Source: Sulfolobus islandicus Y.N.15.51 (GTDB lineage: Archaea > Thermoproteota > Thermoprotei_A > Sulfolobales > Sulfolobaceae). Taken from it: a DNA stretch of 64,000 bases. The DNA lies in contig NC_012623.1 in the NCBI RefSeq assembly GCF_000022485.1, positions 1,638,501-1,702,500 on the forward strand. Reading direction: 5' to 3'. Below the pieces are notes generated by a model. It searched no databases, was not told where the DNA came from, and saw nothing but the letters and a program-made list of their open reading frames with translations. This document shows, one piece after another, positions 8,369 through 53,144 of the stretch (position 1 is its first letter; each line of letters begins with the position of its first letter). Made by a program: the position numbers and the translations under genes.

Positions 8369-8836
8369 ATGAGCGAGACGATAAGGAATATAATGAGATT
8401 ATTTCCACTAGGAATAGTAGTAGTTACAACTAAATGGAGTGATAATTTAGTAGGAATGACGGTCAACACATTTAATTCGCTTTCTTTAAATCCACCATTA
8501 GTTATGTTTACCGCAGATAAAACTAAGGGTAATGATGTACCTTTTATCGAGAGTAATGGTTTTATAGTAAATTTTGTCGATGACGAAAAAATCTTCAATA
8601 CATTTGCCTTTAAGCCCATAAAGGAGAGATTCAAGGAGGCAAAGTTCTTCGAAGGTTTAGATGGAATACCCGTATTGGCTGACAGTTACGCTTACATGGA
8701 AGTTAAGAAGTATAAGACTATTGATATTGGTGATCACACCATTGTAGTTGGTGAGGTAATTAATGGAAAGGTTGTTAGAGATAATTTCTCACCCTTAGTC
8801 TATTACAATAGAAATTATTGGAAGTTATGTAGATAA
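8369..8836 (+). CDS. hpaC: Flavin reductase, small component of 4-hydroxyphenylacetate 3-monooxygenase (HpaC-like)
   Basis: A 155-residue flavin reductase-like protein (split-barrel FMN-binding fold) that supplies reduced flavin to a two-component hydroxylase. The family pattern is visible: LFPLGIVVVTTKW near the N-terminus, MTVNTFNSLSLNPPLVMFTADK, where bound flavin contacts fall, and the late GDHTIVVGEVINGKV. Length is typical. It stands two genes upstream of the HpaB-type oxygenase, its natural partner. ATG 8369 is 26 bases after a TATA box, so it probably has its own leaderless transcript. Confidence 0.88.
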   Translation: MSETIRNIMRLFPLGIVVVTTKWSDNLVGMTVNTFNSLSLNPPLVMFTADKTKGNDVPFIESNGFIVNFVDDEKIFNTFAFKPIKERFKEAKFFEGLDGIPVLADSYAYMEVKKYKTIDIGDHTIVVGEVINGKVVRDNFSPLVYYNRNYWKLCR

Positions 8837-8844
8837 CCTTAAAT

Positions 8845-8853
8845 CAGTTTAAT
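8845..8853 (+). promoter_or_regulatory. CAGTTTAAT element before the ring-cleavage dioxygenase gene
   Basis: CAGTTTAAT is identical to the element at 8324-8332 and ends 38 bases before ATG 8892, upstream of the TATA region GAATTAATTTATC. The second arm of the inverted repeat is degenerate here. Confidence 0.45.
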
Positions 8854-8891
8854 AGTGAATTAATTTATCTTTTTGCACTTGATAGTGTTTG

Positions 8892-9839
8892 ATGATCAAC
8901 ACTTTACGTACATCTCATGTGTGTATAAGAGTTAGCGATTTGGATAAGGCGAGATACTTCTACTCAGAACTCTTAGGATTTGTGGAGACAGAAAAGGATG
9001 GCGATTATATTTATTTGAGAGGGATTGAGGAAGGTCAGCATCATAGCTTAATACTAAAAAAGGCCAACTCGGCTGGTTTATCGTATATAGGCTTTAGGGT
9101 AAGTAAAGGAGAGGAATTAGATAAGGCCAGAGAAGAATTGGAAAACCTAGGTCATAAGGTTAGGAAATTTAGGGAAAAGGGTATTAATGAAGCTCTATTA
9201 TTTGAATCCCCCGAAGGAATCCCAATACTTCTATACTATGACATGGAGTATGTAGGCGATTTAAGATTAGCATTTCATAGGCATAGGGGAGTGAGTCCAG
9301 TCAGGTTAGCCCACGTAAATTATATGGTTAAGGACTTGGAGAGAGAATTGGAGTTCTTTAAGAGATTCATGGGTTACTATGAGACTGAGAGGTTCTTGGA
9401 TAAGGATGGGAATTTGGCAGTAGTGTGGTTAACTAGAAGAGGGGATTCACACGAAATAGCAATAGCGAAGTCAAGTAAAAACGTTCCGGGATTTCACCAT
9501 GAGACGTATTACGTTCATGATGTAAAAGATGTCATTAAAGCCCCAGATATTCTAGCCTCAGTGGGATTGTGGGATAGTATAGAAAGGGGTCCCGGTAGAC
9601 ATGGTGTAACTGAGGGTTATTATATTTATTTGAGAGATTTTGATAAAAATAGAATTGAGTTCTTCACCAACGATTACGTGGTTCTGGATCCGGATAAGTG
9701 GAAACCAATAGTTTGGACCTATGATCAATTAAGGTATAGAAGTGATTTTTGGGGAAGGCCGATTCCTCAATCTTGGTTAACTGAATGGGTTGCCGTGGAG
9801 GATATTTCCACGGGTCAATTAAAGGGGTGGTCTGGATGA
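8892..9839 (+). CDS. VOC-fold extradiol dioxygenase (catechol/homoprotocatechuate 2,3-dioxygenase type)
   Basis: A 315-residue two-domain vicinal-oxygen-chelate protein that opens catechol rings next to the hydroxyls using Fe(II). Domain 1 starts [25 protein letters not shown]. Domain 2 starts [30 protein letters not shown] and carries the metal ligand histidines (RLAHVNY and [11 protein letters not shown]), plus the late [15 protein letters not shown] with the glutamate ligand. ATG 8892 is preferred over an in-frame TTG three bases earlier because it fits the promoter spacing. Its stop overlaps the hpaB start as ATGA, so the two are co-translated. The natural substrate is probably 3,4-dihydroxyphenylacetate. 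Confidence 0.88.
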
Positions 9840-11311
9840 TAAGAAGGGGAACAGATTACATAAAAAGTATAAAGGAAAACCCACCAGTAGTTTACTATGA
9901 AGGAGAAGTAGTAAAGGATGTTACAGAACATTCAGCATTTAAAATACCGATATCTACTGTTGCGAAATATTATGATCTACATTGGGATGAGAAATATAAG
10001 GAGTACCTAAGGGTTTATAACCTTGATGTGGGAGAGGAAACTAGCATAAGTTTTCTAAGACCTAAAAACAAGAAAGATTTAGGCAAATTAAGGGATGGCC
10101 TAGTAAAGATATATGATTACTATAGGGGATTCTTCGGTAGAAGTCCAGACTACCTAAACTTATGGACAATGGTATTCTATGCACACGCTGAGGACTACTT
10201 TGGAAAACAGTTCGGTTCAAAGTTCATGGAAAATGCGATTGAAATTTACAAAGAAGCTACAAAGAGAGATTTGTTCTATACCCACGCAATTGTGGCCCCA
10301 ATGTACGATAGATCTAGACCACCTTCTCAATGGGAAGATCCATACATTCAAGTGGGAATAGTTGAGGAAAAACCAGAAGGTGTAGTAGTAAGAGGAGCCG
10401 CAATGATATGTACCGCCGGTCCTTATGCGGAGATGTTATGGTATTTACCAAATGTCAGAAGAGATAGTGATCCTAGATATGCAATATACTTCTCTATCCC
10501 AACAAACACTAAAGGAGTTAAGTTCTTGTCTAGAAGGGGGTTCCAGCCTAGGGAAGGAGGAGAATTTGAATACCCAATATCTTCTAGATTTGAGGAATCC
10601 GATGCAGTTTTAGTGTTAGATAACGTCCTAATTCCTTGGGAAAGGATAATATTCTTCAAGAAGCCTGAGTTAATCGAAGACCTAATGTGGCATACCGTTC
10701 AGTTAAGGGGATGGTTTAACTGGCACTTCGTAATTCAACATTATAGCAGGTTAAAATTCCTTGCTGGTTTAGCTATCGCCATTGCTGAAGCTTCTGGCAC
10801 CAGTAATTTCATTAACGTTCAAGAAAAGATAGGTGAGATACTGATATATGTAGCTCTAAATGAGGCAGCCCTCTATGCATCAGTTGAAAGAGCCCAAGAA
10901 TTGCCCAATATTACTAGACCAGATCCCTATATTTCCATTTCAGCCAGTCACTTCAACATGAAGACAGTTCCCAGAGCAAATGAGATATTAAGGTCAATTA
11001 GTGCAGGATCATCAATACCTATACCTGCTGGTATTAAAGATTTTGAAAATCCCGAGGAAAGAAAATTATTGGATAAGTACATGGCAATGAAAGGTCTTGA
11101 TGCCCTAGAAAGAGTTAAGATGTTTAACCTACTGTGGGACGTTATAGGATCTGAAGCAGGGATGAGATATGAACAATATGATAGGTTCAGTAGGGGTGAT
11201 CCCACAATAAGATGGGCTCAAACTTATACTGAGGTATTCAAGGATAGAAAGCACGAATTCGTCAAATTGGTTAAGGATATAATCGATCAGATGCCTAATC
11301 CTAAAGCTTAA
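9836..11311 (+). CDS. hpaB: 4-hydroxyphenylacetate 3-monooxygenase, oxygenase component (HpaB)
   Basis: A 491-residue FADH2-dependent hydroxylase of the HpaB family, which adds a second hydroxyl to a phenol to give a catechol. It has the acyl-CoA-dehydrogenase-like fold with [21 protein letters not shown] at the N-terminus, [58 protein letters not shown] and a C-terminal [16 protein letters not shown] 9836 overlaps the preceding TGA; a longer reading frame from 9785 would run inside the dioxygenase gene. Its flavin reductase partner is at 8369-8836 and its product is the substrate of the dioxygenases on either side. Confidence 0.92.
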
Positions 11312-11319
11312 GTGAACAA

Positions 11320-11349
11320 AAGTTAACTTAATTTTTTATTTATATTTTT
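11320..11349 (+). promoter_or_regulatory. Palindrome and TATA region before the LigB-type dioxygenase gene
   Basis: AAGTTAACTT at 11320-11329 is a palindrome related to the AGTTTAA elements of the upstream promoters. It is followed by the AT-rich TATA region ATTTTTTATTTATATTTTT, centred 26 bases before ATG 11363. Confidence 0.45.
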
Positions 11350-11362
11350 GGAGTTCTTGTTA

Positions 11363-12136
11363 ATGACAATTGGCTTATTTATATCTCATGGTTCTCCTAC
11401 AATACTGATTGATGAGAATAAGTGGAAGGACTTATTGAGAAGAGTAGGAAAGGAAATTGAGGAGAAGTATAAACCAGAAACAATAATAGTCTCAAGTCCC
11501 CATTTCGTCTCATGGACGGAAACCTTCTATATTGAAAGCAGTGAGAAGCTAGAGTGTATTCAAGATTATTACGATTTCCCAGATGAGACTTATAAATACT
11601 GTTATAACGCGTTAAATGACACTGAACTAGTTGAAGAAATAGTGAAAAACGCTGAGGGAAAAGTAGTGAAAGATGATAAATGGGGATTAGATCACGGTGC
11701 GTGGATTCCCCTCTTCTACATGTTTCCCGAGTATAAACCAAAAGTTGTAACAATATCAATTACTGACAATTCGCCAGAATCACACTATGAAATAGGTGAA
11801 AAGATTAGGAAAGCAGTAGAGAAACTTGGAAGGAAAGCAGTGTTTTTAGCCACTGGTTCACCAACTCATAGGTTAGACTTGTTTTACTTTAAGATAACTC
11901 CTAAACCTACAAAATTCGATGCGATATTAATGGATCTAATAAAATCTGGTGAATTTGAGAAAATATTAAAAATTAGTGAACTTTATCCTAAGGAGTATCA
12001 GACTGCAATGCCAGAGGGAAATCTAAATACTCTACACATGCTCTTAGGGTATATTAAACCAAAGAAGGCTGAGATACTAGGATATGATACACCTTGGCCC
12101 GGAGTTAGTATGCTAGCCGCAAGCTTTTATGAGTAA
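11363..12136 (+). CDS. Class III extradiol dioxygenase (LigB/DODA family)
   Basis: A 257-residue protein of the LigB superfamily, close to the DODA/YgiD type. Metal ligands are apparent in ISHGSPT (H9), SSPHFVSW (H47), the [15 protein letters not shown] motif and TGSPTHRLD. These enzymes open catecholic rings with a non-heme Fe(II) or zinc in a fold unrelated to the VOC enzymes. ATG 11363 is chosen over an upstream TTG at 11348 because it sits 26 bases after the TATA box. It follows HpaB, which would produce its catechol substrate. Having both extradiol classes in one cluster is unusual. Confidence 0.85.
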
Positions 12137-44008: not shown

Positions 44009-45676
44009 TTAATATGACTTGAAAGTTCTACCTAACCAATAACCTCTTTGTATAGCCTTACCAATACTCGGCTGGTCATCAGCAATATTATGTATTTCCA
44101 CGTCAAACTTCATACTATTTTTTTCCTCTAAGAACTTCACACCAACTTCACTTAACTCCTTTCTTAGGAGGTACTCCCTAGTTCTATCCAATCCCTTAAA
44201 CGATCTCTCAGTAATGTAAATCTCATTATATTTAGCTAGCTCAAACGCATAGTCATGATAAACGTAAAGGTTAGAATCTATCAGCAATTTTTCTCCCTTG
44301 ACGTCGGGCATTTTAGGTATTTCATAGTCAGGTATAGCCATTATACAGTCAGAGCACTCAATCTTAGAGTTAAGCTTAACCTCAACATTAAGTCTCTTTA
44401 ACTCCCTCTCATAGTAATTAATTAACTCTTGGAACTCCTTAACTTTCCAAGGATCCTTGTAAAGTAGGAACTGTCCTCCTAACTTATTGTTTTGCTCATA
44501 TAAAGTTACCGTGAAGCCCCTCAAAGCTAAGACTCTAGCAGCTTCTAAACCCATTACGCCTCCTCCCACTACAATAACCTCTCCCTTGCCCTTCTCTAAT
44601 GGTGGTAACAACTCCCATCCTAATTCGGGGTTGACATCACATCTTACCTCTTTATATACAACCCCTCTACATGTCTGATTACACCTAATACATGGTCTTA
44701 TTGGTAGATCCCTTTTAGCTTTCTCTAGCCAATAGGGATCGGCTAATAATTGTCTTCCTAATACAACGACGTCAGCAATTTCTCTCGCCTTAATCGCATC
44801 TACTGGAGTTATCACAGATCCAACAAGAAATATTGGAATATTAACTGCATCCCTTACTACCTTTGCCTCTTCAAGAAATGCCAATCTCTTATAGTAGTAT
44901 GGCATGCTGGAACCCAAAGGACCATCTCTTCCAGCTGATAAGTGAATATAATCTATCCCAGCCTTCTCCAACTTTTTACCTATTTCAGCAACAATTTCTG
45001 GAGTTAAGCCATCATTGTCGAATTCGGTTACACTGATTCTTATACCTACAGTGATTTTAGCTTTTTCCTTTATGCCCTTAAGGATTTCCTCTATAAACCT
45101 TACACCATCTTTGTACTCATCATTCCTCTTATTTGTCGCGGGAGATAAGAATTGGGCTAATAGATACCCATGAGCTCCATGAAGTTCTATTCCGTCAAAT
45201 CCAGCCCTCTTAGCTCTTATTGATGCGTCTATGAAATCGTTTTTAACCCTCTCTATATCCTCCTTAGTCATTTCCCTTACTTCGTCCATTATAGGAATGG
45301 GAGAAGGGGCTATTGGTTTGTTACCCCAAATTATATCCTTTCTAGTCTTCCTACCAACGTGAACTAGTTGCACAAAAATCTTACTTCCCAAAGCGTGAAT
45401 TAACTCAGTTAACCTCATGAACTTTGGCGTTAACTCATCTGAATCCATTCCCAGTTCGTTAACTGATCCCCTAGCGTCTACGTGATTAACGTATGTGTAT
45501 TCTGTTATTATTAACCCAACTCCTCCCTTAGCTCTCTCAGCTAAGTAAGCTATATGAGCATCACTAGGATAACCCTCCGGCGTACCTAGATTACTGATCA
45601 TTGGTGACATGGCTATTCTATTCTTTAAAACAATATCTCCAATTCTTATTGGTTCCAGTAGCTTCGATAGATCCAT
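44009..45676 (-). CDS. Old Yellow Enzyme / 2,4-dienoyl-CoA reductase-like flavoprotein with shortened C-terminus
   Basis: A 555-residue protein. An N-terminal OYE TIM barrel (RIAMSPMISNLGTPEGYPSD, GVGLIITEYTYV, IELHGAHGYLLAQFLSPATNKRNDEY) is followed by a 4Fe-4S cluster motif (CIRCNQTCRG then RCDVNPE). A Rossmann domain then begins VIVVGGGVMGLEAARVLALRG. 2,4-dienoyl-CoA reductases and related enzymes are usually 640-670 residues; here the second dinucleotide-binding half is reduced. It probably reduces enoate or dienoyl-CoA substrates using NAD(P)H through FMN. TATA GTTAACTTTTTAAC precedes ATG 45676. Confidence 0.85.
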   Translation of the reverse strand: MDLSKLLEPIRIGDIVLKNRIAMSPMISNLGTPEGYPSDAHIAYLAERAKGGVGLIITEYTYVNHVDARGSVNELGMDSDELTPKFMRLTELIHALGSKIFVQLVHVGRKTRKDIIWGNKPIAPSPIPIMDEVREMTKEDIERVKNDFIDASIRAKRAGFDGIELHGAHGYLLAQFLSPATNKRNDEYKDGVRFIEEILKGIKEKAKITVGIRISVTEFDNDGLTPEIVAEIGKKLEKAGIDYIHLSAGRDGPLGSSMPYYYKRLAFLEEAKVVRDAVNIPIFLVGSVITPVDAIKAREIADVVVLGRQLLADPYWLEKAKRDLPIRPCIRCNQTCRGVVYKEVRCDVNPELGWELLPPLEKGKGEVIVVGGGVMGLEAARVLALRGFTVTLYEQNNKLGGQFLLYKDPWKVKEFQELINYYERELKRLNVEVKLNSKIECSDCIMAIPDYEIPKMPDVKGEKLLIDSNLYVYHDYAFELAKYNEIYITERSFKGLDRTREYLLRKELSEVGVKFLEEKNSMKFDVEIHNIADDQPSIGKAIQRGYWLGRTFKSY

Positions 45677-48176: not shown

Positions 48177-48977
48177 TCATGGTTCATAAACCTTATAAAA
48201 GAACTCGTTAGCCTTAGGAGTAAGTTCCTCCCTTAATTTCATAAATAGATCATATGCTGTATACCCTATCCAATTTGGAGGTAATAAATCCTCAGGTAAA
48301 TCTGGATCAATGTTTAAAAATTTTCTATATTCGTGGACAAGTAGTATCCTAGTTACGAACGCCTCATTACTTTTTAGACTACTTACCTTTTCTAGTACTC
48401 CAGTCCATTTTTCTAAGAACGCTCTATAAGCTTGTTCAACTTCAGATAAATTCCAACATTTTTCTACTAGTCCCTTAGGTTCTCCTAGATAATTTGCAAC
48501 GAAAATGTCTACTTGTATACCATTAGATGAACCATAGTGATCGTTAATGAAATTCTTTAAGGTATCTTCAATTGGGTTTGGTGAGATCCACGTCGATTGG
48601 GCTAACATACCAAATCCAAGCCACTTCAGCTCTCTCCTTAACTTATCTCTTAGTTCTCTATTGTTCTCTGGGATATTATATACTACTATCCTCCACTTAT
48701 TATCCCATCTTCTCCTAACTTTTTCATAAACCCTCCTAGTTCCTTCCAATAATCTTAGCATACCTTTTTCTGATAATTTGTAGCTAACTTTCCTATTTTC
48801 TCCTTTTATTCCTACTATAAGTCCTGCTTTCTTCATTCTATGTAATCCTGCCCTTATTGCTCCTTCGGAAAATCCAAATTCCTTAAAGATTACGATTAGA
48901 CTTTTAGAACTTATCGTTCCTCCAGAATCCTTCACATAATCTCCATAGAGTGTAAAGAACAATGACTGTATCTTCAT
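48177..48977 (-). CDS. paaX: PaaX-family transcriptional regulator
   Basis: A 266-residue regulator. N-terminal winged helix (SLFFTLYGDYVKDSGGTISS, FGFSEGAIRAGLHRMKKAGLI) with the PaaX signature, central WRIVVYNIPENNRELRDKLRRELKWLGFG and C-terminal helical domain (LLVHEYRKFLNIDPDLPEDLLP). In bacteria PaaX represses phenylacetate genes and is released by phenylacetyl-CoA. It sits next to an aromatic acid-CoA ligase and di-iron oxygenase genes, so a ligand such as an aromatic CoA thioester is likely. Confidence 0.88.
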   Translation of the reverse strand: MKIQSLFFTLYGDYVKDSGGTISSKSLIVIFKEFGFSEGAIRAGLHRMKKAGLIVGIKGENRKVSYKLSEKGMLRLLEGTRRVYEKVRRRWDNKWRIVVYNIPENNRELRDKLRRELKWLGFGMLAQSTWISPNPIEDTLKNFINDHYGSSNGIQVDIFVANYLGEPKGLVEKCWNLSEVEQAYRAFLEKWTGVLEKVSSLKSNEAFVTRILLVHEYRKFLNIDPDLPEDLLPPNWIGYTAYDLFMKLREELTPKANEFFYKVYEP

Positions 48978-49089
48978 TAATAATAACCTTTAAATTAATA
49001 CTAAAAAATTTTCTTAGTTGTAGCAAGTGTTATAAAGCTCATCGACATGTTTACAAAGGATTAGTTTCTTTTTTAACTGTCCTTATAAA

Positions 49090-50685
49090 TTATTTGATCT
49101 CCCCTAGCCTAAACTTATATCGTTGTATCTTACCGGTTGCAGTCTTAGGAATTTCCGTAATAAACCTTATTTCTTTAGGAACCTTATAATGGTCTAATTT
49201 TTCCCTAAGGTAATTCCTTATCTCCTCAGCTAATTCACTACTTGGCGAATACCCTTGTTTTAGCGTAACAAACCCAACTACCCTTACTAATCCTACTTCA
49301 TCTGGAATACCTACAACTGCAGCCTCAAGAACTGCAGGATGTGATAATAGCGCAGATTCCACTTCTATTGGAGAAACCCATAATCCCGAAGTCTTAACCA
49401 TATCGTCAGACCTTCCAACGTAGTAATAATATCCCTCGTCATCTCTGTAAAACTTATCTCCAGTTCTAAACCAAGATCCCATCATGTTCTTTCTAGTACT
49501 TTCGTAATCATTCCAATAAAACATGGCTACACTATCTCCTTTTACGTAGAGATCCCCTATAGTTTTAGGAGGAACCTCATTGCCATCTTCATCTACTATT
49601 TTAACCTCATATCCAGGGACTGGTTTCCCAGTACATCCAGGCTTAGAATTACTTGGAATGTTAGAGATATATATGTGAAGTGCCTCAGTGGAACCAATAC
49701 CATCTAGAATTTCTACGCCGTATCTCTCTTTCCATTTAATATATATTAACGGGGGTAAGGGTTCTCCAGCAGAAACGCAAAATCTTAAACTAGTTAAGTT
49801 GTAATTCTTCCAATCCTCTACATGTAGCATTGCGTTATATAAAGTAGGCACTCCAAAGAAGATAGTAGGCTTGTATTTATGTATGGTCTCCAATACCCTT
49901 CTGGGTTCTACTCTATCTGGCATCAGAACTGTCGAGGCACCGTTACCAAAGGCGAAGTAGGATCCATTTCCTAATCCATAAGCGAAAAATAGTTTAGAGG
50001 CGCTGAATAGTCTATCTTTTTCACTGATTTTGAGAACGTTTTTCACATAGGTATCGAGAACAACTAATATGTCTTTATGTAAGTGAACTGCTGCTTTAGG
50101 ATGTCCCGTAGTCCCTGACGTATAGAGCCAAAACGCCATATCGTTTGGAGAAGTCTTTTCAGCTTCTAAGTGAGTGGAGGCTGTAGAAACAAGTCCATGA
50201 TAAAAACTCAACTCTGCCTTGTGATTATGATCCTCGAAAGTGATCTTCTGCGTTTCTGATATACTGGGCAAAATTATAACATGTTTAAGTTTATCAGCTC
50301 TACCTTTAAGGTATGGAGATAACTTGGGCCAAATGTCTGGTTCAATTGCCAATACCTTAGCTCCAGTATCCTCTAAAAGGAAAAGATACTCCTCTGGTTT
50401 TAAATAAGTGTTAACTGGTACCGGGATCGCACCAATTTTCATGGCACTATAGAAAATCGATATAAAGAACGGTGTATCATACGCTATTATCAATATTCTA
50501 TTTTCTTTCTCCACTCCTAATTCCCTTAGGGCATTACCTACCCTATTTATTTCCTCTATTACCTTGCGATATGACCAAACTTCATCTTTATAATAAATTG
50601 CTATTCTTTTATCTGCCTCACTATTTTCCCATTTTGAAAACAACGCATCAGTTACATTTAAAATTCTACCATACTTAGCAGTCAT
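49090..50685 (-). CDS. Aromatic acid-CoA ligase (benzoate/4-hydroxybenzoate-CoA ligase family)
   Basis: A 531-residue ANL ligase: P-loop FWLYTSGTTGHPKAAVH (around residue 188), FFAYGLGNGSYFAFGNGAS, the family-specific FCVSAGEPLPPLIY and LDGIGSTEALHIYISN, WFRTGDKFYRDDEGYYYYVGRSDD, and the catalytic lysine in PKTATGKIQRY. The KLFFAYGLGN and GIGSTE.LHI patterns are those of benzoate-CoA ligases. It would activate an aromatic acid before attack by the di-iron oxygenases encoded next door. Confidence 0.88.
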   Translation of the reverse strand: MTAKYGRILNVTDALFSKWENSEADKRIAIYYKDEVWSYRKVIEEINRVGNALRELGVEKENRILIIAYDTPFFISIFYSAMKIGAIPVPVNTYLKPEEYLFLLEDTGAKVLAIEPDIWPKLSPYLKGRADKLKHVIILPSISETQKITFEDHNHKAELSFYHGLVSTASTHLEAEKTSPNDMAFWLYTSGTTGHPKAAVHLHKDILVVLDTYVKNVLKISEKDRLFSASKLFFAYGLGNGSYFAFGNGASTVLMPDRVEPRRVLETIHKYKPTIFFGVPTLYNAMLHVEDWKNYNLTSLRFCVSAGEPLPPLIYIKWKERYGVEILDGIGSTEALHIYISNIPSNSKPGCTGKPVPGYEVKIVDEDGNEVPPKTIGDLYVKGDSVAMFYWNDYESTRKNMMGSWFRTGDKFYRDDEGYYYYVGRSDDMVKTSGLWVSPIEVESALLSHPAVLEAAVVGIPDEVGLVRVVGFVTLKQGYSPSSELAEEIRNYLREKLDHYKVPKEIRFITEIPKTATGKIQRYKFRLGEIK

Positions 50686-50754
50686 TATTATTTAATTTTT
50701 TAAACCAATTTATATAGTTTACGCTGTTAATCTAGTACGTTAAAATCTCGCAAT

Positions 50755-51459
50755 TTATTTTAGTACAATATTATAGTGGAGATTTTTATCGTAGTTTACT
50801 TCAACAAATCCAAAATTCCTCATCTCATCATTAGTCGATCTTACGTAGTCTTCAATGAGTTTATCACTTATCAATTCGGAAACGTTAAGGTCTCTAAGAT
50901 GAACCTCATTTAGGGATTTCACTTTATATAGCATCTCTAAGGCTCTAGGGAACCAGAAGTTGAGCGCAGCTTGTAACCTATTCTTATTCTGATAGGCCTT
51001 CAATACGTTTTTAGAGAAAAATAAATGGCTCTCTTCCTCCTTAATCATGCTAGAGGCCAAATTGGCTAATGGTTCAAATGAACAATCCTTAATTACTCTC
51101 AACTGATATAACCCAGCTCTATCTACTAGAAATACAAACGCTATGACATCTTCCCAGTTAAATAGAGGCATATTAGATATATCCAACATATGGATTCCCA
51201 ATCTAGCTTCTTCAATTTTAACTACTCTATCCTTAACGTTAAACTCTTCCAGTAATCTCACTAGTTGCCAACCATGATTCAGCTCATCTGAAACTAGCTT
51301 AGCCGTAAATAATCTATCATCTACTGTTGGCGCGTTAACTAGCCAGGGTGAAATTTGTTCTACCATGCCTAATTCGAAGTCTGCCCTTAACACTATTATC
51401 TCTATTAAGGTGTTTTTTAGATCTTGTGACAGTTCCCTTACACTGTTAAATTTTTGCAT
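50755..51459 (-). CDS. PaaA/PaaC/BoxB-like di-iron protein (aromatic-CoA oxygenase candidate), A
   Basis: A 234-residue ferritin-like protein. Di-iron ligands appear complete: Glu29, then ELNH (Glu59...His62), Glu103 in NWEDVIAF, and EESH (Glu142...His145). This is the pattern of phenylacetyl-CoA and benzoyl-CoA epoxidase catalytic subunits. It is divergent from its homologue at 51561-52331 across a 101-base intergenic region. It is shorter than bacterial PaaA (about 310) or BoxB (about 470). No reductase gene is visible nearby. Confidence 0.82.
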   Translation of the reverse strand: MQKFNSVRELSQDLKNTLIEIIVLRADFELGMVEQISPWLVNAPTVDDRLFTAKLVSDELNHGWQLVRLLEEFNVKDRVVKIEEARLGIHMLDISNMPLFNWEDVIAFVFLVDRAGLYQLRVIKDCSFEPLANLASSMIKEEESHLFFSKNVLKAYQNKNRLQAALNFWFPRALEMLYKVKSLNEVHLRDLNVSELISDKLIEDYVRSTNDEMRNFGFVEVNYDKNLHYNIVLK

Positions 51460-51560
51460 AGTAACTCATTAAGTATCTATTTTTTAGAAACTTTTATGCT
51501 TTTCGCTTTTTTCTTTCTACGTACAGAAAACGTTATATACTTTTAAGTACAATTGGTATA
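51460..51560. promoter_or_regulatory. Divergent promoter region of the two di-iron genes
   Basis: Two TATA-like elements face outward: CTAAAAAATAG near 51478-51488 for the left gene and GTTATATACTTTTAAG at 51531-51546 for the right gene, each about 24 bases from its ATG. Between them lies CTACGTACAGAAAACGT; a related TAGTACGTTAA occurs upstream of the ligase near 50734. This could be a PaaX-type operator, but the match is loose. Confidence 0.45.
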
Positions 51561-52331
51561 ATGATGGTAGTTGTGGAATACAAAAAGCCTAAAAGAGTCG
51601 TTGGATGGGGAGAGTATAAGGGATTAAGAAAGTTTGAGTCAATTTATGATCTTCCACCAGAAGCAGTTAAAGTCTTATTTAAGCTATTGTCAGTTCAAGG
51701 GGATACAGAATTTGCGTCAATAGAGCAGCATATGCCTTGGTTAATTCATGCACCAAAACTATCTGATAGGGTAACTATCTCGAGAATTATGGTAGATGAG
51801 ATGAGGCACGGATGGCAAGTAATTCAGATATTAAAGGAATTCGGTGAGGAGGGAAAAAAAATAGCTGAAGATCTACTATCTAGGCGAATGGGTAGACATA
51901 AGCTCGACGCATTTAATATTCCATTCAATATGTGGGAAGATACCTTAGGCTTCACCTTTTTAATAGATAGAGTAGGAATGTTCCAGCTATTAGCCTTTGA
52001 GGATTCTAGTTTTGGTCCCTTATCTAGGATAATACCCACCATGATGATGGAGGAGGAATTTCATATCAACTTTGGATACACTGGTATTAAGAAGCTAGTT
52101 GAGGAAGGCAAGAGGGATTTAGCGCAGGCATTAATAAATAAGTGGTTCCCTAGAGGCTTGGACATGTTTGGCCACTCTAAGTCGATTACAATAGATTTAG
52201 CATACAAGTATGGGATAAAGAAAATGAGGAATGATGAAATGAGACAGTTATACATTAAGGATATTAAAGAACTAATTACTCCTCTAGGTTTAGAGTTACC
52301 AGATATAAATAGGAATAGAAGGGTATATTAG
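51561..52331 (+). CDS. PaaA/BoxB-like di-iron protein (aromatic-CoA oxygenase candidate), B
   Basis: A 256-residue homologue of the divergent neighbour, also with full di-iron ligands: Glu50 (DTEFASIEQHMPW), EMRH (Glu80...His83), Glu126 in MWEDTLGF, and EEFH (Glu165...His168). It is followed directly, across a stop/GGTGA Shine-Dalgarno junction, by an enoyl-CoA hydratase gene. Bacterial Paa complexes pair one catalytic subunit with a PaaC that has lost the metal site; here both retain it. Confidence 0.83.
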   Translation: MMVVVEYKKPKRVVGWGEYKGLRKFESIYDLPPEAVKVLFKLLSVQGDTEFASIEQHMPWLIHAPKLSDRVTISRIMVDEMRHGWQVIQILKEFGEEGKKIAEDLLSRRMGRHKLDAFNIPFNMWEDTLGFTFLIDRVGMFQLLAFEDSSFGPLSRIIPTMMMEEEFHINFGYTGIKKLVEEGKRDLAQALINKWFPRGLDMFGHSKSITIDLAYKYGIKKMRNDEMRQLYIKDIKELITPLGLELPDINRNRRVY

Positions 52332-52340
52332 GTGAGACTG

Positions 52341-53144
52341 ATGGGCTTAAGTGAGTTAAATCCAAAGTACTTCAAAATAGAAGTCGAAGACGGAGTAGGA
52401 ATTATTAAATTAAATAGATCTCCAGCAAACGCACATAATCTTGAGATGTTGAGGGAATTAGATAATATAATAGTTGAATCGAGATTCGACCAAAACGTTA
52501 AAGCCATACTCATAACTAGTAATATTCCTAGGTTCTTCTCTGCAGGATTTGATATAAATGAAATAAAGGATAAGTCCCCCGAGTATATTGGATTATCGAG
52601 TCAGTTTAGTAAGGAGGTTATGCTTAGGATGATGTCCACTAAGAAACTAATAATTGCTAGCATAAACGGGCATTGTATGGGAGGTGGGTTAGAACTTGCG
52701 TTGGCGAGTGATTTAAGATTTGGAGCTAACGATGAAAATATAAAATTTGGTATGCCAGAAGTAGCCAATTTGGCCCTAATACCAGGGGAGGGTGGAACAC
52801 AGTTTTTAGCTAGGTTAGTGGGTAGATCTAAGGCAATATACTTAATAGTAACCGGAAAGACGCTCTCTCCTAAAGAGGCCTATGAACTCGGAATATTGGA
52901 CAGATTAATAGAACCCGAAAAACTATTTGAAGAGTCCTTTGAATTTGCAAGACAAGTGGCTAAAGGTCCATCATTAGCTGTAGGATTTACGAAATTAGCG
53001 GTAAACGAAGGAATGGATTTACCTTGGTATAATGCGTTTGCCCTAGAAAGGGAAATGCAAAACCAAGCGTTAGCGTCAGAAGACGCTAAGGAGGGAGCTA
53101 GGGCGTTCTTTGAAAAAAGGAGACCAGTATTTAAAGGGAAATAA
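52341..53144 (+). CDS. Enoyl-CoA hydratase/isomerase (crotonase family)
   Basis: About 267 residues from ATG 52341, six bases after a GGTGA Shine-Dalgarno site; an in-frame GTG at 52332 is part of that site. Crotonase features: AHNLEMLRELD, FFSAGFDINEIKD, INGHCMGGGLELALASDLR (oxyanion hole Gly-Gly) and FGMPEVANLALIPGEGGTQFLARLVG with the catalytic Glu. Probably acts on the ring-opened or epoxidised CoA ester, like PaaG or PaaF, in this aromatic cluster. Same operon as the di-iron gene upstream. Confidence 0.9.
   Translation: MGLSELNPKYFKIEVEDGVGIIKLNRSPANAHNLEMLRELDNIIVESRFDQNVKAILITSNIPRFFSAGFDINEIKDKSPEYIGLSSQFSKEVMLRMMSTKKLIIASINGHCMGGGLELALASDLRFGANDENIKFGMPEVANLALIPGEGGTQFLARLVGRSKAIYLIVTGKTLSPKEAYELGILDRLIEPEKLFEESFEFARQVAKGPSLAVGFTKLAVNEGMDLPWYNAFALEREMQNQALASEDAKEGARAFFEKRRPVFKGK

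Follow-up and report, generated by a model that had tools for sequence, protein, structure and literature searches.

The window analysed here, 64,000 nucleotides of the thermoacidophilic archaeon Sulfolobus islandicus Y.N.15.51 (NC_012623.1, positions 1,638,501 to 1,702,500), holds a compact gene cluster at 48177-53144 in which two di-iron-fold proteins lie beside a coenzyme A (CoA) ligase, a crotonase and a PaaX-type regulator. A reading of the sequence alone, made before any database search, had described an archaeal aerobic aryl-CoA oxygenase-type cluster with this gene list (there a benzoate-CoA-type ligase and an enoyl-CoA hydratase). Both descriptions agree with the gene content, and the same five open reading frames (ORFs) are recovered by their Pfam/NCBIfam matches. 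We coined the names BoxL1 and BoxL2 for the two di-iron proteins.

48177-48977, minus strand: PaaX-type repressor, 266 aa (PF07848, PF20803, PF08223)
49090-50685, minus strand: benzoate/anthranilate-type CoA ligase, 531 aa (TIGR02262 above cut-off)
50755-51459, minus strand: BoxL2, second PF05138 di-iron-fold subunit, 234 aa (PF05138 above cut-off; six ligands; relative of SSO1313 / PDB 4MUD)
51460-51560, no strand: candidate divergent promoter region between BoxL2 and BoxL1 (TATA-like elements; strong conservation)
51561-52331, plus strand: BoxL1, catalytic-type di-iron subunit, miniature BoxB-like, 256 aa (PF05138 above cut-off; six ligands; QGDTE motif)
52332-53144, plus strand: crotonase, 270 aa (ECH match; groups with BoxC N-terminal domain; both catalytic Glu present)

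Families were assigned by Pfam and NCBIfam profile scans of the cluster proteins. The PaaX-type protein has the N-terminal, middle and C-terminal PaaX domains and scores below the TIGR02277 equivalog cut-off (219 versus 264.55 bits). The ligase passes the subfamily cut-off of the benzoate-CoA ligase family TIGR02262 (537 bits versus 375), and its best PDB matches are 4WV3, an anthranilate-CoA ligase, and 2V7B, a benzoate-CoA ligase. It shares a GIGSTE-x-LHI stretch with benzoate ligases and occupies the same cluster position as SSO1314 of S. solfataricus. BoxL1 and BoxL2 are the only PF05138 genes in the 2.85 Mb genome. As far as function can be read from sequence, the cluster has the genes of an aerobic, CoA-dependent route for aromatic compounds, put together in an uncommon way: the catalytic-type subunit is a miniature BoxB-like protein, the second subunit has an origin separate from PaaC, the crotonase is BoxC-like with one domain, and no reductase of the ferredoxin-NADP reductase (FNR) type was detected.

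This arrangement is not due to chance, because it recurs, in the same or rearranged order, at ten loci in nine further genomes of Sulfolobales. The core of PaaX, ligase, BoxL2, BoxL1 and crotonase is kept, sometimes rearranged, while the flanks vary; PaaX adjoins the cluster in nine of the ten other loci, the exception being Metallosphaera yellowstonensis, whose operon runs on into a thiolase, a PaaK-like ligase and a 3-hydroxyacyl-CoA dehydrogenase. Within the class, PF05138 occurs in 10 of 229 genomes, confined to three genera of one family. BoxL1 and BoxL2 are neighbours in every Sulfolobales genome that has both. They are divergent in Saccharolobus (the genus of the window), and in Sulfolobus and Metallosphaera they run the same way with hardly a gap between them.

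Ancestry and metal ligands of BoxL1 and BoxL2

In a maximum-likelihood tree of PF05138 proteins (38 rows), BoxL1, BoxL2, BoxB and single archaeal and bacterial relatives split from PaaA plus PaaC with support of 100/100. Both window proteins lie on the BoxB side, which rules them out as a PaaA/PaaC pair, and constraining BoxL2 to a clade with PaaC, as expected of a PaaC orthologue, was rejected by the approximately unbiased test (p-AU 4e-5). BoxL2 appears to have arisen as a paralogue inside the BoxB-like lineage, separately from PaaC. Neither protein reaches the BoxB equivalog cut-off of TIGR03225 (105 bits for BoxL1 and 40 for BoxL2, versus 499). An AlphaFold2 (AF2) model of BoxL1, with a predicted local distance difference test score (pLDDT) of 93, gave VIA-align Z scores of 29.0 to 4MUD, 27.5 to BoxB 3PF7 and 25.6 to PaaA 3PW8.

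The best-aligned structure, 4MUD, is SSO1313 of Saccharolobus solfataricus and is also the nearest solved structure to BoxL2. SSO1313 is a BoxL2-type protein but a diverged copy (72% identity to the window BoxL2), clustered with SSO1311 (an enoyl-CoA hydratase) and the ligase SSO1314; we placed these tags in the cluster through the identity of SSO1313 with 4MUD and gene order. The SSO1314 protein, annotated as acetyl-CoA synthetase, was detected in the proteome and lowered under nickel (PMC1995220), and SSO1311 mRNA was also detected (PMC3694839), so the S. solfataricus copy of the cluster is expressed. No study of an archaeal benzoyl-CoA epoxidase or of SSO1313 was found within the set of papers searched.

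Alignment with E. coli PaaA and PaaC and with BoxB places all six ligands of the BoxB/PaaA-type set (EEHDEH) in BoxL1 and BoxL2 alike, as the sequence-only reading had it when it called both subunits metal-complete. We take the BoxB ligands to be E120, E150, H153, D211, E240 and H243, which fit the 3PER sequence. The aligned positions also agree with the numbering of the PaaA ligands Glu42, Glu72, His75, Asp126, Glu155 and His158 (PMC4498308). BoxL1 keeps all six in every relative examined and carries the BoxB-like QGDTE motif. Four residues before the first ligand, BoxL1 and BoxB share a Gln that is important for BoxB catalysis; BoxL2 has R or I there.

BoxL2 is more variable. Its six ligands are complete in 8 copies from 7 Saccharolobus genomes. 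In two genomes of the sister genus Sulfolobus (G213, G214) the first Glu is Lys and the fifth ligand is Asp in place of Glu; the same Lys stands at the first-Glu position in PaaC of Thermus, Haloterrigena and Agrobacterium. The 196-aa partner in M. yellowstonensis, which stands beside an intact BoxL1, is degenerate and lacks the Asp and the last Glu/His; its model (pLDDT 82.8) still aligns with 4MUD and PaaC, consistent with a PaaC-like fold. On the other side of the family, PaaC of Haloferax and Halorubrum is ligand-complete (6/6). The idea that the window follows a different subunit logic, set against a metal-free partner as the norm, does not survive these two haloarchaeal proteins and the ligand losses in Sulfolobus and Metallosphaera. 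On these alignments, neither two complete sites nor one broken site holds throughout in either half of PF05138, and completeness of BoxL2 reads as a Saccharolobus-level state, not a rule of the system.

The two subunits also differ in rate. The ratio of nonsynonymous to synonymous substitution rates (dN/dS) is 0.035-0.066 for BoxL1 and about 0.12-0.13 for BoxL2, which evolves 2-3x faster yet remains under purifying selection.

Among the other genomes checked, those with BoxL1 mostly lack a second subunit. Outside Sulfolobales, a wider contig scan, from which 80 of 273 loci were retained, gave BoxL1 relatives of about 35-47% identity in Thermoplasmata, Kariarchaeota, Chloroflexi and Binatia and, in the largest number, in Poseidoniales; the retained loci were mostly Poseidoniales, and bacteria with other relatives may be missed. 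The single BoxL1-type genes of Poseidoniales, Thermoplasmata, Kariarchaeota and Chloroflexi keep EEHDEH but have no BoxL2 beside them; a BoxC-N-like crotonase adjoins all of them but the one on the Chloroflexi contig. Exactly one PF05138 match was found in each of M. yellowstonensis, the Thermoplasmata genome, the Kariarchaeota genome and five Marine-Group-II-type genomes, so BoxL1 can, by this count, act without a recognisable ligand-complete partner; most of these single-match relatives are metagenome-assembled genomes, in which partner absence is provisional. The Chloroflexi genome has four matches and the Binatia genome three.

Two further loci bear on PF05138 ligand sets. Besides its intact BoxL1, the Chloroflexi genome (G556, L143:1548-2282) encodes a Box-like paralogue with a His-to-Gln ligand change and without the upstream Gln, possibly another separately decaying partner. 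A plasmid of Bartonella sp. HY406 (L122:2534-5915) carries a PaaX-family gene and, after it, a pair of neighbouring PF05138 genes whose products both have incomplete ligand sets on this alignment.

Crotonase, electron donor and promoter

In a crotonase tree of 25 rows, the cluster crotonases, the BoxC N-domains and a Haloterrigena crotonase form a clade (97/100), and the window crotonase is separate from PaaF, PaaG and the remaining crotonases encoded by the same genome. Grouping it with PaaF was rejected (p 1e-4). A clade of cluster crotonases and BoxC without the Haloterrigena protein was marginally rejected (p 0.046) because that protein nests inside. The window crotonase, a single domain of 270 aa, has both Glu of active hydratases aligned and fails the BoxC cut-off of TIGR03222 (53 versus 712 bits); in BoxC itself the active site lies in the N-domain only (PMC4498308). 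Plasmid searches returned haloarchaeal crotonases about 50% identical to that of the window. In Haloterrigena the gene order is PaaA, a PF01883 protein, PaaB, PaaC and then the crotonase, with a 2Fe-2S ferredoxin gene nearby.

The absence of a nearby reductase, noted from the sequence alone, proved to be an understatement. PF00175, the NAD domain of PaaE/BoxA-type FNR reductases, was not found anywhere in the genome or in 30 of 31 family genomes, among them every cluster-bearing one. The search was positive in 10 control genomes; the controls Haloferax volcanii and S. acidocaldarius were negative though they carry PF05138. PF06243 (PaaB) likewise had no match in the genome itself or in the 31 family genomes, and its positive controls matched. 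The sequence-only reading had also postulated an unlinked electron donor, which is right in that no donor is linked and too mild in that no PaaE/BoxA-type domain was found in this genome or in its cluster-bearing relatives. Because no such NAD(P)H reductase was detected, the simplest inference is that a ferredoxin would be the donor.

Several candidate components were set aside. Three Fer2 frames of 163-171 aa in the genome, considered as a PaaE ferredoxin domain, are, judged from size, likely molybdo-hydroxylase small subunits. A dicluster-type ferredoxin is found some 6 kb away from the cluster in 3 of the 11 loci, the window not among them, and gives only a weak hint. An Old Yellow Enzyme (OYE)-family flavoenzyme at 44009-45676, considered as electron donor, is present in only 5 of 11 loci and is not adjacent. 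PF01883 (PaaD-like) proteins occur in three copies, unlinked and widespread, and so are uninformative. The product of the Haloferax gene annotated paaE (L119:7511-7678) is no reductase but a PaaD zinc ribbon of 55 aa (PF23451).

The 101-bp divergent region at 51460-51560 is strongly conserved in seven Saccharolobus loci. A TATA-like TTATATA lies about 25 bp before the BoxL1 start, and on the minus strand a TATA-like CATAAAAG precedes BoxL2. We regard this region as a candidate promoter for both directions and a candidate PaaX operator.

A predicted Box-like route and its alternatives

Two bacterial systems frame the interpretation. With BoxB/BoxA/BoxC of Azoarcus and Burkholderia, the cluster shares the BoxL1 ligands, QGDTE motif and tree position, a benzoate-CoA ligase, and a crotonase of the BoxC N-domain clade beside the oxygenase. 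It differs in the length of BoxL1 (256 aa against about 470 in BoxB), in its second subunit, in its single-domain crotonase and in having no detected BoxA; BoxB is monomeric and needs no structural subunit (PMC4498308). With PaaABCDE of E. coli and Klebsiella, and with haloarchaeal PaaABCD, it shares two adjacent PF05138 subunits and a PaaX-type regulator, and the haloarchaeal form also has no linked FNR-type PaaE. In contrast to the Paa systems, the window has no detected PaaB, BoxL2 is not a PaaC orthologue, and the ligase is of the benzoate type, not PaaK.

On balance we favour, with moderate confidence, a minimal archaeal Box-like aerobic CoA-thioester ("hybrid") ring-cleavage route with BoxL1 as catalytic subunit, BoxL2 as its partner and a general ferredoxin as donor. 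The ligase would activate a benzoate-like acid to its CoA thioester, and BoxL1 would epoxidise the aryl-CoA ring using its di-iron site and O2. The BoxC-N-like crotonase would then process or hydrolyse the epoxide, with general beta-oxidation following. BoxL2 is most likely a structural or regulatory partner of BoxL1, PaaC-like but evolved separately. The ligand-complete site of Saccharolobus BoxL2 may bind metal, yet with the second-sphere Gln of BoxL1 and BoxB replaced it is unlikely to serve as a second site of epoxidation. Electrons would come from a general carrier, most likely ferredoxin, and PaaX may repress from the shared divergent promoter.

Some observations weigh against this route. 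The BoxL1 plus BoxL2 clade is neither supported nor rejected (p 0.32), so that the two may have split within Sulfolobales or earlier. At a position that is Cys in BoxC and the other cluster crotonases, those of Sulfolobales carry Ser; the BoxC branch is long in the crotonase tree, and the aldehyde dehydrogenase step (BoxD/PaaZ) is absent from the cluster. Across Saccharolobus none of the six BoxL2 ligands varies, although invariant columns make up only 43% of the protein (p 0.006 if all columns are equally likely to vary), which suggests that the site does something.

That invariance, in a protein that diverges to 57% identity within the genus under purifying selection, is what speaks for a two-site oxygenase, in which both di-iron centres of Saccharolobus are used, for successive oxygenations or with BoxL2 as an O2-activating or electron-relay site. 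We consider this unlikely: in the two Sulfolobus genomes and M. yellowstonensis the partner site is broken, so that any function of the operon there has to do without it; no partner is present in the majority of the other BoxL1 genomes checked; and BoxL2 lacks the Gln common to BoxL1 and BoxB. A bolder form is also doubtful, namely that both Saccharolobus subunits are metal-loaded and cooperate in a two-site aryl-CoA oxygenase fed by ferredoxin, with Sulfolobales preserving a live series towards a metal-free pseudo-subunit independent of PaaA/PaaC. Divergent transcription in Saccharolobus and the monomeric state of BoxB (PMC4498308) would suit BoxL1 and BoxL2 as separate oxygenases for related CoA thioesters, with one ligase between them and no complex; this seems quite improbable given their constant adjacency in Sulfolobales, their co-directional, nearly abutting genes in Sulfolobus and Metallosphaera, and a ligand loss in BoxL2 that fits a non-catalytic partner.

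The substrate may be contested separately. Phenylacetyl-CoA, a cinnamoyl-type CoA or hydroxybenzoyl-CoA could be oxidised instead, the resemblance to Box being one of chemistry only, since family membership is no reliable guide to aryl-CoA ligase specificity and the linked regulator is PaaX-type; E. coli PaaX responds to phenylacetyl-CoA. Against another acyl-CoA stand the strong match of the ligase to benzoate/anthranilate ligases, including GIGSTE-x-LHI, and not to PaaK, and the grouping of the crotonase with BoxC-N and not with PaaG/PaaF, and we judge such a substrate improbable.

BoxL1 and BoxL2 probably show that the "active plus pseudo" di-iron pair known from PaaA/PaaC arose a second time, independently; here one genus retains the metal site of the partner and neighbouring genera have lost it. 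What the dead subunit is for would become a testable question in thermophiles with genetic tools. The cluster also suggests that archaea may epoxidise aryl-CoA with no reductase of the FNR type, and it draws attention to a related operon, with one subunit, that is widespread in marine Poseidoniales.

Relatives and neighbouring genes

Poseidoniales / Marine Group II contigs (L040-L115, for example L047:8963-12528) make up the majority of retained loci and share a conserved operon of a crotonase, a BoxB-like protein of 380-400 aa, a protein of about 190 aa without a Pfam match and a 3-hydroxyacyl-CoA dehydrogenase, with an aldehyde dehydrogenase nearby. It is a candidate for a widespread marine archaeal ring-oxidation route.

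One Sulfolobales genome (G205) holds two cluster copies, L028 and L029, one 99.6-100% identical to that of the window and the other of the SSO1313 type. In G204 (L027:10966-12559) a frameshift or a sequencing error divides the benzoate-CoA ligase gene into frames of 311 and 224 aa. The OYE-family gene is kept upstream in some relatives; in L028 it is interrupted by about 1.3 kb with a 363-aa ORF that also occurs in L029. Within the window, at 8369-12136, adjacent genes encode a flavin reductase, an extradiol-type dioxygenase, an HpaB 4-hydroxyphenylacetate 3-hydroxylase and a LigB-type dioxygenase, probably a cluster for the meta-cleavage of 4-hydroxyphenylacetate, which lies about 37 kb away from the BoxL genes.

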